Part shown: one piece after another, positions 14,289-32,791 of the stretch
How positions within the stretch are numbered: position 1 is the first letter of the stretch
Layout: the number at the start of each line of letters is the position of its first letter
DNA from: Candidatus Dactylopiibacterium carminicum
GTDB lineage: Bacteria; Pseudomonadota; Gammaproteobacteria; Burkholderiales; Rhodocyclaceae
Length of the DNA stretch: 64,000 bases
NCBI RefSeq assembly: GCF_014736495.1
Contig: NZ_MDUX01000007.1
Location: forward strand, 1-64,000
Reading direction: 5' to 3'
The notes under the pieces: model-generated
What the model saw: the letters and a program-made list of their open reading frames with translations, nothing else
Told to the model about the DNA's origin: nothing
The model's database searches: none
Translations under genes and position numbers: made by a program

Positions 14289-16283
<1,995 letters not shown>

Positions 16284-16317
16284 ACCGTTCCACCGCCCGC
16301 GCCTGTGCGCGGGCGTC

Positions 16318-16600
16318 GGGCCTCTAGCTCATGCCTGGTTAGAGCAGCGGACTCATAAAATTTGTGCCGTACGTGTGGAAACTGCGTACGGGATGGCGTC
16401 AAATTCGGCGAAACCTAAGTGCGGCAACGCATACGGCAACACCGAGCCAAGCTTCGATGCGCAAGCATCGTTGAAGGTGTAGAGACTAGACGGCGCCCAC
16501 CTACAGCGAAAGCCATGGTGAAGGCATAGTCCAGGGAGTGGCGAAAGCCACACAAACCGGAATCCGTTGGTGCCGAGTTCGACTCTCGGGGGGCCCACCA
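16318..16600 (+). tRNA. tRNA-Ile (CAU) interrupted by a group I intron
   Basis: The two exons, 16318-16356 and 16561-16600, join to a complete cloverleaf. The acceptor is GGGCCTC/GGGGCCC with discriminator A and encoded CCA. The D arm is GCTC/GAGC, the anticodon stem GCGGA/TCCGT with loop CTCATAA, and the T arm CCGAG/CTCGG. The anticodon CAT, the location behind rpoD and the intron point to the minor isoleucine tRNA whose C34 is changed to lysidine by TilS, rather than methionine. A typical elongator tRNA-Met is present separately at 32.7 kb. The intron interrupts the loop directly behind the anticodon, so splicing is needed for function. Confidence 0.93.
16357..16560 (+). ncRNA. Self-splicing group I intron in the tRNA-Ile anticodon loop
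   Basis: The 204-nt intron strongly resembles the 205-nt Azoarcus tRNA-Ile ribozyme, from memory of that sequence. The guide GTG at 16364-16366 can pair with the anticodon CAT, putting the G-U wobble at the 5' splice site. Core segments are recognisable in order: TCAAATTCGGCGAAACCTAAG (J3/4 to P6 side), GGTGTAGAGACTAGACGG (P3/P7) and the closing P9 part, ending in CCGG with the terminal G at 16560. Peripheral stems P2, P5, P6 and P8 differ in sequence but keep pairing. No endonuclease gene is inside. Confidence 0.93.
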
Positions 16601-16632
16601 AAAACAAGTAGCAGAACGTATCAAAACCTCTC

Positions 16633-16659
16633 AAAAGCCTGCACAATGCGGGCTTTTTC
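16633..16659 (+). terminator. Terminator behind tRNA-Ile
   Basis: aaaagcctgca-caa-tgcgggcttttt forms a ten-pair stem with a T run, 33 bases behind the tRNA CCA end. It ends the rpoD/tRNA transcript and faces the convergent lacI-type gene. Confidence 0.8.
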
Positions 16660-16687
16660 TTTGTCAGCCACCGATAACGACCCACGC

Positions 16688-17695
16688 TCAGACCCTGCCC
16701 AGCTGCGTCGACGCACGCACAAGTAGGCGCGGCTCCAGGTATTCGACCGTCGGGCTGTAGTCCCCACTCTGGATGGCACGATGCAGGCGCTCCAGCGAAT
16801 GGCCGCCCAGATCTTCGCTGCGCATGTCCACAGTAGTCAGCGATGGCGTGACGTAGCGCGACACCGGAATGTTGTCGAAGCCGGCGAGCAGGATGTCGTC
16901 AGGCACCCGTACGCCCAGCGCGCACAAACCGTGCAGCAGGCCGATGGCGATCATGTCGTTGTAGCAGACGATGGCGTCGGTCTTGTAGTCGTCGTAGACG
17001 AGGCTCGCAGCAATCGCCTCGCCGGCCTCCATTGTCTGCGTATCGACGCTGAGCTCGCGCACCTCCGCACCGTTCGCCAGCTCACGCAACGCATTGACAC
17101 GGTCGGCATTCCAGATCGACTTGCCGTAACCCACATAGGTGATGCGCTGACGCCCTGCTTCCAGGACGTGGCGACCTAACAGCAACGCTGCTTCCCAGCC
17201 ACGAATCTGGATCGAAGGCGAAGGCGGTGGCGCCCCCGGCTCGTGCAGGGTCTGGCCGAACAGCACCGCTGGTTTGCCCAGCTGCAGCGGCAGGTCGCGT
17301 GCTGCTTCCGGCAAACGCAGGCTGAGGATCAGCCCATCGACACGCCGGGCCAGATCATCGATGGTCTGCTGTGCGTGCGACACATCCTCCTTCAGATCCA
17401 CCACGATCAGGTTGTAACCATGCGCCTGTGCCCTGATGCTGGCGCCGTGGACGATATTGGTGAAGTGCGGGTTGCGGATATCCAGCACCACCAGACCGAT
17501 GGAGCCGAACAGGCCTGTGGCCATGCTGCGCGCCCCTGGATTCTGACGATAGTTCAGGGCCACGATGGCCTCGCGCACACGCGCCTCGACCTCCGGCTTG
17601 AACTGGTAGCGGCGGTTGAGAATCATCGAGACGGTGGCAGTCGACACGCCGGCAGCGGCAGCAACATCCTTCAAGGTAGCGGGTCGTTTTGACAT
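16688..17695 (-). CDS. LacI-family transcriptional regulator
   Basis: Sugar-responsive repressor, presumably for the divergent uronate operon starting at 18.2 kb. The 335-residue protein has the N-terminal helix-turn-helix (TLKDVAAAAGVSTATVSMILN, about 7-27), the hinge helix region near 50-60, and a periplasmic-binding-like effector domain. The latter includes GLVVLDIRNPHFTNI, DGLIL and the LLAGFDNIPVSRYVTPSLTTVD core. It ends close behind the tRNA terminator, converging with rpoD. Ligand cannot be read from sequence; a uronate or KDG-type inducer is inferred from the neighbours. Confidence 0.9.
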   Translation of the reverse strand: MSKRPATLKDVAAAAGVSTATVSMILNRRYQFKPEVEARVREAIVALNYRQNPGARSMATGLFGSIGLVVLDIRNPHFTNIVHGASIRAQAHGYNLIVVDLKEDVSHAQQTIDDLARRVDGLILSLRLPEAARDLPLQLGKPAVLFGQTLHEPGAPPPSPSIQIRGWEAALLLGRHVLEAGRQRITYVGYGKSIWNADRVNALRELANGAEVRELSVDTQTMEAGEAIAASLVYDDYKTDAIVCYNDMIAIGLLHGLCALGVRVPDDILLAGFDNIPVSRYVTPSLTTVDMRSEDLGGHSLERLHRAIQSGDYSPTVEYLEPRLLVRASTQLGRV

Positions 17696-32714: not shown

Positions 32715-32791
32715 TGGTGGTGATGGGCGGGATCGAACCGCCGACCTGCGGGTTATGAATCCGCCGCTCTAACCATCTGAGCTACATCACC
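32715..32791 (-). tRNA. tRNA-Met (CAU)
   Basis: A 77-nt cloverleaf on the minus strand: acceptor GGTGATG/CATCACC with encoded ACCA end, D arm GCTC/GAGC with GGTTA loop, and anticodon CAT at 32755-32757 in TTCATAA. The T arm is GGCGG/CCGCC with TTCGATC. The closing A31-C39 pair of the anticodon stem is a mismatch. The sequence is that of an elongator methionine tRNA, uninterrupted, in contrast to the split CAU tRNA behind rpoD. Confidence 0.92.

Follow-up and report, generated by a model that had tools for sequence, protein, structure and literature searches.

A group I intron of the Azoarcus type in the tRNA-Ile(CAU) gene of Candidatus Dactylopiibacterium carminicum, with relatives in bacteria and viral contigs

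The split tRNA gene and its identity

The first 64,000 nucleotides (nt) of contig NZ_MDUX01000007.1 from Candidatus Dactylopiibacterium carminicum (assembly GCF_014736495.1), a stretch that we call the window, hold a tRNA-Ile(CAU) gene that is divided by an insert of 204 nt. We regard this insert as a group I, Azoarcus-type intron, an assignment that is well supported and ordinary in kind. To the wider reading, namely a self-splicing intron in the sole tRNA-Ile(CAU) gene found in its host that was probably acquired horizontally, we give a probability of about 0.93; here we infer splicing, essentiality and the route of transfer from sequence comparisons. The gene is composed of three parts:

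16318-16356, + strand: 5' exon of tRNA-Ile(CAU) with the anticodon CAT (16354-16356) at its end (ARAGORN with introns; identical intron-less genes L184, L010 and L012)
16357-16560, + strand: group I intron of 204 nt, its last base G (omega G) at 16560 (RF00028 match, covariation)
16561-16600, + strand: 3' exon of tRNA-Ile(CAU), encoding CCA (ARAGORN with introns; intron-less relatives)

With introns allowed, ARAGORN reads a single tRNA gene over exactly 16318-16600 on the plus strand, with the anticodon CAT at tRNA position 37 and the 204-nt intron starting at position 40, directly 3' of the anticodon. Run without introns it calls no tRNA in this interval, and the joined exons (16318-16356 plus 16561-16600) are recognized as a 79-nt tRNA with a CAT anticodon. 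The same 79 nt occur as uninterrupted genes, identical at every letter, in three relatives, one from the genus of the window (G001; L184, L188) and two from its family (G019, L010; G014, L012). Because of these identical intron-less genes, the boundary 16356/16561 is fixed and no model is needed to place it. A preliminary description of the locus, made from the letters alone, had proposed a complete tRNA split at this junction by a 204-nt insert whose guide GTG (16364-16366) lies opposite the anticodon. ARAGORN and the intron-less copies agree with the first proposal, and the conservation of P1 across the 89 introns aligned below bears out the second.

The Rfam family RF00028 aligns its whole model (positions 1-253) to 16344-16553 and scores 46.1 bits (E 1.2e-10 when a stretch of 501 bases is searched); in a search of the whole genome it is the sole match at E <= 0.001, with E 2.0e-10. 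Of the group I covariance hit on which the preliminary description had staked its assignment, the significance thus holds, but the score stays below the curated cut-off. That cut-off guards Rfam's listing; membership in group I rests instead on the structure and the boundary tests. The ordered core P3-P4-P5-P6-P7-P8 with the P3/P7 pseudoknot is present, as drawn on the window and counted over the aligned introns, and so are the signs of group I splice sites: the 5' site follows a U paired to a guide G, a U-G pair conserved in 89/89 introns, and the intron ends with G16560. A chance match is ruled out by the E value of 1.2e-10, the covariation and the exact intron-less genes.

The identity of the tRNA was judged against the full complement of the window's own genome (G000; 99.31% complete, 122 contigs). 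This genome has 46 tRNA matches, the split gene not being among them. In 31 of its stretches ARAGORN reads 45 tRNAs, including one tRNA-Ile(GAT) and one gene with CAT, which is the initiator Met tRNA by its sequence; the other intact CAT gene, at 32715-32791 of the window, is elongator-like Met. Over the tRNA-bearing stretches, ARAGORN found neither a tRNA-Ile(TAT) nor a second tRNA-Ile(CAU). The genome encodes a TilS domain (167.1 bits), and the signs of a tRNA-Ile2 are present: the CAU anticodon, the dissimilarity to initiator and elongator Met tRNAs, and TilS in the genome. We found no source of an AUA-reading isoleucine tRNA in the assembly other than the split gene, which would presumably be essential to its host. 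The dependence of the isoleucine tRNA on the intron, stated in the preliminary description, is in this way supported in silico by the lone tRNA-Ile(CAU), the lack of a tRNA-Ile(TAT) and the presence of tilS. That the gene encodes a methionine tRNA instead, as its CAT anticodon and the ARAGORN label Met would have it, is highly improbable, since initiator and elongator Met genes, told apart by sequence, are both found elsewhere in the genome. In addition, two viral contigs have a TilS-domain gene whose end lies 19 nt ahead of a tRNA divided by the same kind of intron, and the acceptor pairs C4-G69 and C5-G68 presumably suit TilS, which we also count against a Met identity.

Conserved fold and proposed splicing

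An exact-pattern scan of named genomes yielded at least 119 stretches with at least 123 matches, of which 90 have the end of the 5' exon, GACTCAT, upstream and 33 do not. From the matches listed, the window and three relatives, we assembled an alignment of 89 distinct introns, in which identical copies count once and one locus with a gap of N (L073) was dropped. Guided by what is established for group I introns, we sketched the structure manually on the window and then scored it on this alignment, the window included. Its elements are:

16364-16366, + strand: guide GTG, which forms P1 with CAT of the 5' exon and places a U-G pair at the splice site; the three P1 pairs are conserved in 88, 89 and 89 introns out of 89
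16367-16391, + strand: P2 with GAAA loop L2; two-sided changes in 6/7 stem pairs, pairing in 90.4% of cells, GAAA in 89/89
16395-16400, + strand: 5' strand of P3, partner 16492-16497; 2/6 pairs covary, 100% of cells paired
16405-16410, + strand: 5' strand of P4, partner 16440-16445; 91.0% of cells paired, 100% without one pair
16414-16436, + strand: P5 with the tetraloop-receptor-like CCTAAG...TACGG; outer pairs 100%, inner pairs 87.6% of cells, receptor form in 12/89
16447-16477, + strand: P6/P6a; 100% and 96.1% of cells paired
16484-16488, + strand: 5' strand of P7, partner 16527-16531; paired in 89/89, never varies
16498-16520, + strand: P8 with the receptor-like CCTACA...CATGG; outer pairs 100%, inner pairs 49-74% of cells, receptor form in 4/89
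16538-16551, + strand: P9 with GAAA loop L9; 3/5 pairs covary, 100% of cells paired, GAAA in 89/89

The drawn structure pairs in 94.9% of 5504 cells, compared to 85.3% in shuffles and 27-41% when the partners are slid. Changes on both sides of a pair occur in 535 cells against a shuffle mean of 147.5, a number that none of 500 shuffles reached. Compensatory changes are seen in P2, P3, P5, P6, P8 and P9, as illustrated by the second pair of P6, where C-G is swapped to G-C in 29/89 introns; P4 has no pair that changes on both sides among the 89 introns, and two pairs of P2 are unpaired in 26/89 introns of this alignment. The loops L2 and L9 are GAAA in every aligned intron, whereas the presumed receptor sequences vary. 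The roles of P5 and P8 as receptors that dock L9 and L2, respectively, are ones that we assume from the Azoarcus structure.

Several observations pull the other way. P7, the guanosine-binding site in group I introns, and P9.0 are invariant over the 89 introns, so that covariation supports neither helix. Counted by pairs rather than cells, 29/63 change on both sides against a shuffle mean of 25.9, which 11/500 shuffles reached. The inner pairs of P8 are paired in only 49-74% of cells and its arm lengths vary. A minimum-energy fold misses the native core (z -2.28), though the program is blind to pseudoknots and cannot draw them. Finally, 46.1 bits is less than the RF00028 gathering score of 50, and a default scan of the window therefore lists no intron.

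That same shortfall, together with two non-standard pairs (C.A in P4, A.C in the inner part of P8), could point to a decayed, inactive intron in a tRNA pseudogene, AUA being read by another tRNA. We deem this very unlikely: the P4 pair is unpaired in 48/89 introns, the P8 receptor form recurs in 4/89, and apart from these two mismatches all drawn pairs of the window are standard. Furthermore, the exons are identical to uninterrupted genes, and a pseudogene is hard to reconcile with a genome in which no second tRNA-Ile(CAU) and no tRNA-Ile(TAT) was found.

The 204-nt RNA very probably cuts itself out. In the mechanism we propose, the pre-tRNA would be transcribed, possibly behind rpoD, and the 5' exon would pair through its CAU with the GTG of the intron. 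Cleavage after U36 would be carried out by a guanosine bound in P7, upon which the freed 5' exon would attack after the last G of the intron and join the anticodon loop. TilS would then modify C34, presumably to lysidine, enabling the tRNA to read AUA.

The immediate surroundings of the gene contain two further features:

14289-16283, + strand: rpoD (sigma-70 factor), a 664-aa open reading frame directly upstream of the tRNA gene, named from its sequence; context only
16633-16657, + strand: terminator-like hairpin after the tRNA, from a pattern scan with 1 found against 1.1 expected in shuffles, its position being the sole argument

RpoD lies upstream on the same strand in 35/89 intron loci, with a partial match in 2 more; in 32/89 an upstream stretch of 2.5 kb or more lacks RpoD, and 20/89 are too short to judge. 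The idea that the intron always sits beside rpoD was rejected on this recount. A consensus scan of 16200-16720 found no promoter (0.2 expected). Between rpoD and the tRNA lies a GC-rich hairpin (16294-16315) with a sequence unlike the same place in relatives; a CRISPR-DR9 match corresponds to this hairpin. Likewise, Trp_leader and Phe_leader matches over the 3' exon and terminator are below cut-off and accounted for by the terminator-like hairpin. A homing endonuclease gene inside the intron was dismissed, as 204 nt leave no room for it.

Spread among bacteria and viral contigs

The host of the window is a near relative of Uliginosibacterium; the intron of Uliginosibacterium sp. 31-16 (L090) is 90% identical to that of the window. 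Among eight genomes searched in the genus of the host, its own included, three hold the intron (G000, G004, G007) and four an uninterrupted gene (G001, G003, G005, G006), while G002 has a weak match only. Further out, an exact core pattern broad enough to include other tRNA introns occurs in 26/297 genomes of the family, and a pattern nearer the Ile type in 10/399 genomes of the order (9/159 genera), the own genome counted in both; exact patterns overlook diverged copies.

The kinship of the introns departs from that of their hosts, and horizontal transfer is therefore indicated. The rpoD of the window (633 nt) is most similar to that of the intron-less G005 (92%); its intron, by contrast, is closest to that of G004 (98.0%), whose rpoD end is only 89.7% identical and whose flanks are unlike. 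Across orders, the intron of Limnobacter (Burkholderiales) shares 98.1% identity with its counterpart in Gulbenkiania (Neisseriales) and 97.6% with the one in Dechloromonas (Rhodocyclales), with rpoD ends of only 79.5 and 81.6% identity, respectively. The trees comprise 26 rows for the intron and 42 for rpoD, selected by hand out of 71 loci; Polynucleobacter, with its many loci, is represented by only 4. The intron data reject a single clade of the nine introns from Rhodocyclales hosts (p 1.1e-6; some hosts were placed by GTDB kinship), and at least 12 changes of presence are needed on the rpoD tree, a biased count given that its 42 rows were partly picked for holding introns.

Inheritance that was vertical only, with an old intron lost in most lineages and never transferred, would fit the insertion site shared by the aligned introns, the position beside rpoD in 35/89 loci and a single clade of the three Uliginosibacterium-group introns, with which the intron data are compatible (p 0.4). 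We nevertheless consider it unlikely in view of the near-identical introns in hosts of different orders, the rejected Rhodocyclales clade, the presence changes on the rpoD tree and the 32 loci with at least 2.5 kb upstream in which the gene lies away from rpoD. The compatible Uliginosibacterium-group clade does count against a horizontal gain by the window itself, as the intron may have entered the genus just once, at an earlier time, and later been lost or exchanged. On balance, the intron would most likely have reached its locus horizontally, by exchange of tRNA genes among related bacteria and perhaps via phages.

Related inserts were encountered at other sites. In tRNA-Ile(CAU) of family genomes, a larger insert of about 250 nt with the same intron core pattern (L192, L205, L208 and other loci) sits three bases upstream of the window-type site, between U33 and C34. 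Related introns also occur in tRNA-Thr(TGT), tRNA-Ser(TGA) and tRNA-Leu(TAA) of relatives (L006/L211, L215, L018, L025, L206, L207, L216, L217), one of them, in tRNA-Thr, lying in the window's own genus. Several loci (L039, L043, L055, L063, L072, L097, L109 and others) carry the intron or its 3' part with the 3' tRNA half, the 5' half being absent. Eighteen of the 33 listed matches of this 5'-less kind could be judged by their upstream length, and 9/18 are in Polynucleobacter; five start at the anticodon loop and the rest inside the intron, as at the ends of integrated islands. A crude, insensitive motif scan saw no integrase beside 5'-less copies in 32 loci, and a single doubtful one in 90 loci with the 5' exon. 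On plasmid pB1A of Comamonas aquatica (L224), a diverged intron 3' end with the 3' tRNA half lies near type I restriction-modification genes and an IS3 transposase.

Relatives of the intron are also present in viral contigs. In IMG/VR the intron pattern matches 6 stretches, each with a complete CAT tRNA with intron according to ARAGORN, and the core pattern matches 17 stretches (L218-L223, L228-L238), the 6 included. All 17 hold a tRNA, 12 with CAT, 3 Leu(TAA) and 2 Lys(CTT), as read by ARAGORN with introns allowed or on exon joins chosen by hand; with introns allowed, four of these loci (L231, L233, L234, L236) receive other labels and L228 yields no call, and for L234 the boundary is an approximate one. 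RF00028 scores six viral loci that were tested at 45.9-74.9 bits, with L218 under the cut-off. L218 carries a terminase gene (PHROGs, 5.8e-12), and its intron groups with the Azoarcus-like intron (97/98). The 12 viral CAT introns are only 73-84% identical to the window intron, and none is therefore a direct donor. Viral introns as one clade are compatible with the data (p 0.08), so that these copies may go back to one or to several exchanges between hosts and phages.

The gene content around these viral introns is suggestive. L223 and L222 encode an endonuclease of 211 aa (phrog_15137, E 2e-21), and L220 has an open reading frame of equal length with the same first 60 residues, assigned by likeness only. 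In all three (L223:757-1392, L220:1724-2359, L222:681-1316) the last 42 bases of the endonuclease gene lie inside the tRNA gene, in its 5' exon, and the stop codon spans the border of exon and intron. TilS-domain genes in L231 (3129-3776, 126.6 bits) and L236 (6250-6897, 115.0 bits; cut-off 93.6) end 19 nt before the intron-split CAT tRNA. An open reading frame downstream in L231 resembles an HNH endonuclease by eye, its PHROGs family having no known function. The endonuclease running into the tRNA in three contigs and the TilS gene before it in two suggest a vehicle for the intron, whose mobility is hypothetical.

Two named viruses, Gordonia phage Daredevil and Agrobacterium phage Atu_ph07, have stretches that are 75.7 and 76.5% like the window intron core. 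These sit in split tRNA-Lys and tRNA-Leu genes by ARAGORN, which are not so annotated, and the two loci (L226, L227) give no RF00028 match at E <= 1e-4. Bordetella phage vB_BaM-IFTN8 (L225) carries at 1501-1540, beside an annotated integrase, 40 nt that are 97.5% identical to the window 3' exon and continue upstream as GACTCAT; this stretch probably marks a site of attachment within tRNA-Ile(CAU), one that the intron would disrupt.

The gene structure, conserved fold, exact boundaries, patchy spread and viral-contig relatives are sequence facts; phage homing is a hypothesis. Tentatively, Azoarcus-type tRNA introns could be living mobile elements with tRNA-bearing phages as one vehicle, the endonuclease could drive homing into intron-less tRNA-Ile genes of bacteria, and the window intron might be a recent landing, a scenario that we hold to be doubtful as it stands. 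The added interest of the locus lies in the horizontal pattern and the viral-contig copies, which bear on the old question of how tRNA introns lacking an endonuclease spread between distant bacteria.

Comparison with known introns

A passage of a 2014 review states that the phage introns observed until then were all in protein-coding genes, despite the many tRNA genes of phages (PMC3984707). The literature searched, which covered few subscription journals, yielded no description of phage tRNA genes with group I introns. In cyanobacteria, group I introns reside in tRNA-Leu(UAA) and tRNA-fMet, the latter being described as recent lateral gains (PMC4033280); they differ from the window intron in both tRNA and host. 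Nearer to it, the tRNAscan-SE 2.0 paper already mentions that tRNA-Ile2 of Acidovorax and Burkholderia species contains group I introns (PMC8450103); these share the tRNA, the intron group and beta-proteobacterial hosts with the window. The passage in question gives no sequences or structures, and the window host is a near relative of Uliginosibacterium instead. With such introns in print and at least 119 stretches matching the pattern, the value that the preliminary description had set on the find was overstated.

The closest model system is the intron of Azoarcus sp. BH72 pre-tRNA-Ile, reportedly termed group IC3 in the title of a cited paper. We take a 205-nt intron from the window's GTDB family (G048, L203) to be this sequence. 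The window intron is identical to it in 169/209 alignment columns, with 31 substitutions and small indels, in accordance with the close resemblance to the Azoarcus ribozyme claimed beforehand. Both introns share the tRNA, the site after the anticodon, the order of helices, the GAAA loops L2 and L9 and nearly the same length (204 nt in the window versus 205 nt). The preliminary description had further held that P2, P5, P6 and P8 differ and stay pairable. This is largely so: P2 has compensatory changes with all seven stem pairs standard, and the P5 and P6 arms differ in length and sequence; P8, on the other hand, has the one A.C inner pair. Beyond those arms, a T-A pair of P3 in Azoarcus is C-G in the window, again a compensatory change.

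The two introns diverge as well in both presumed tetraloop-receptor sites, with TACGG in the window against TATGG in Azoarcus for P5, and CCTACA...CATGG against CCTAAG...TATGG for P8, yet the loops are still GAAA. The expectation that this natural variant of a well-studied small ribozyme could inform on peripheral contacts fits the same contrast of constant loops and varying receptors over all 89 introns; the window and its 88 aligned relatives provide a natural mutagenesis set for the contacts of the Azoarcus-type ribozyme.
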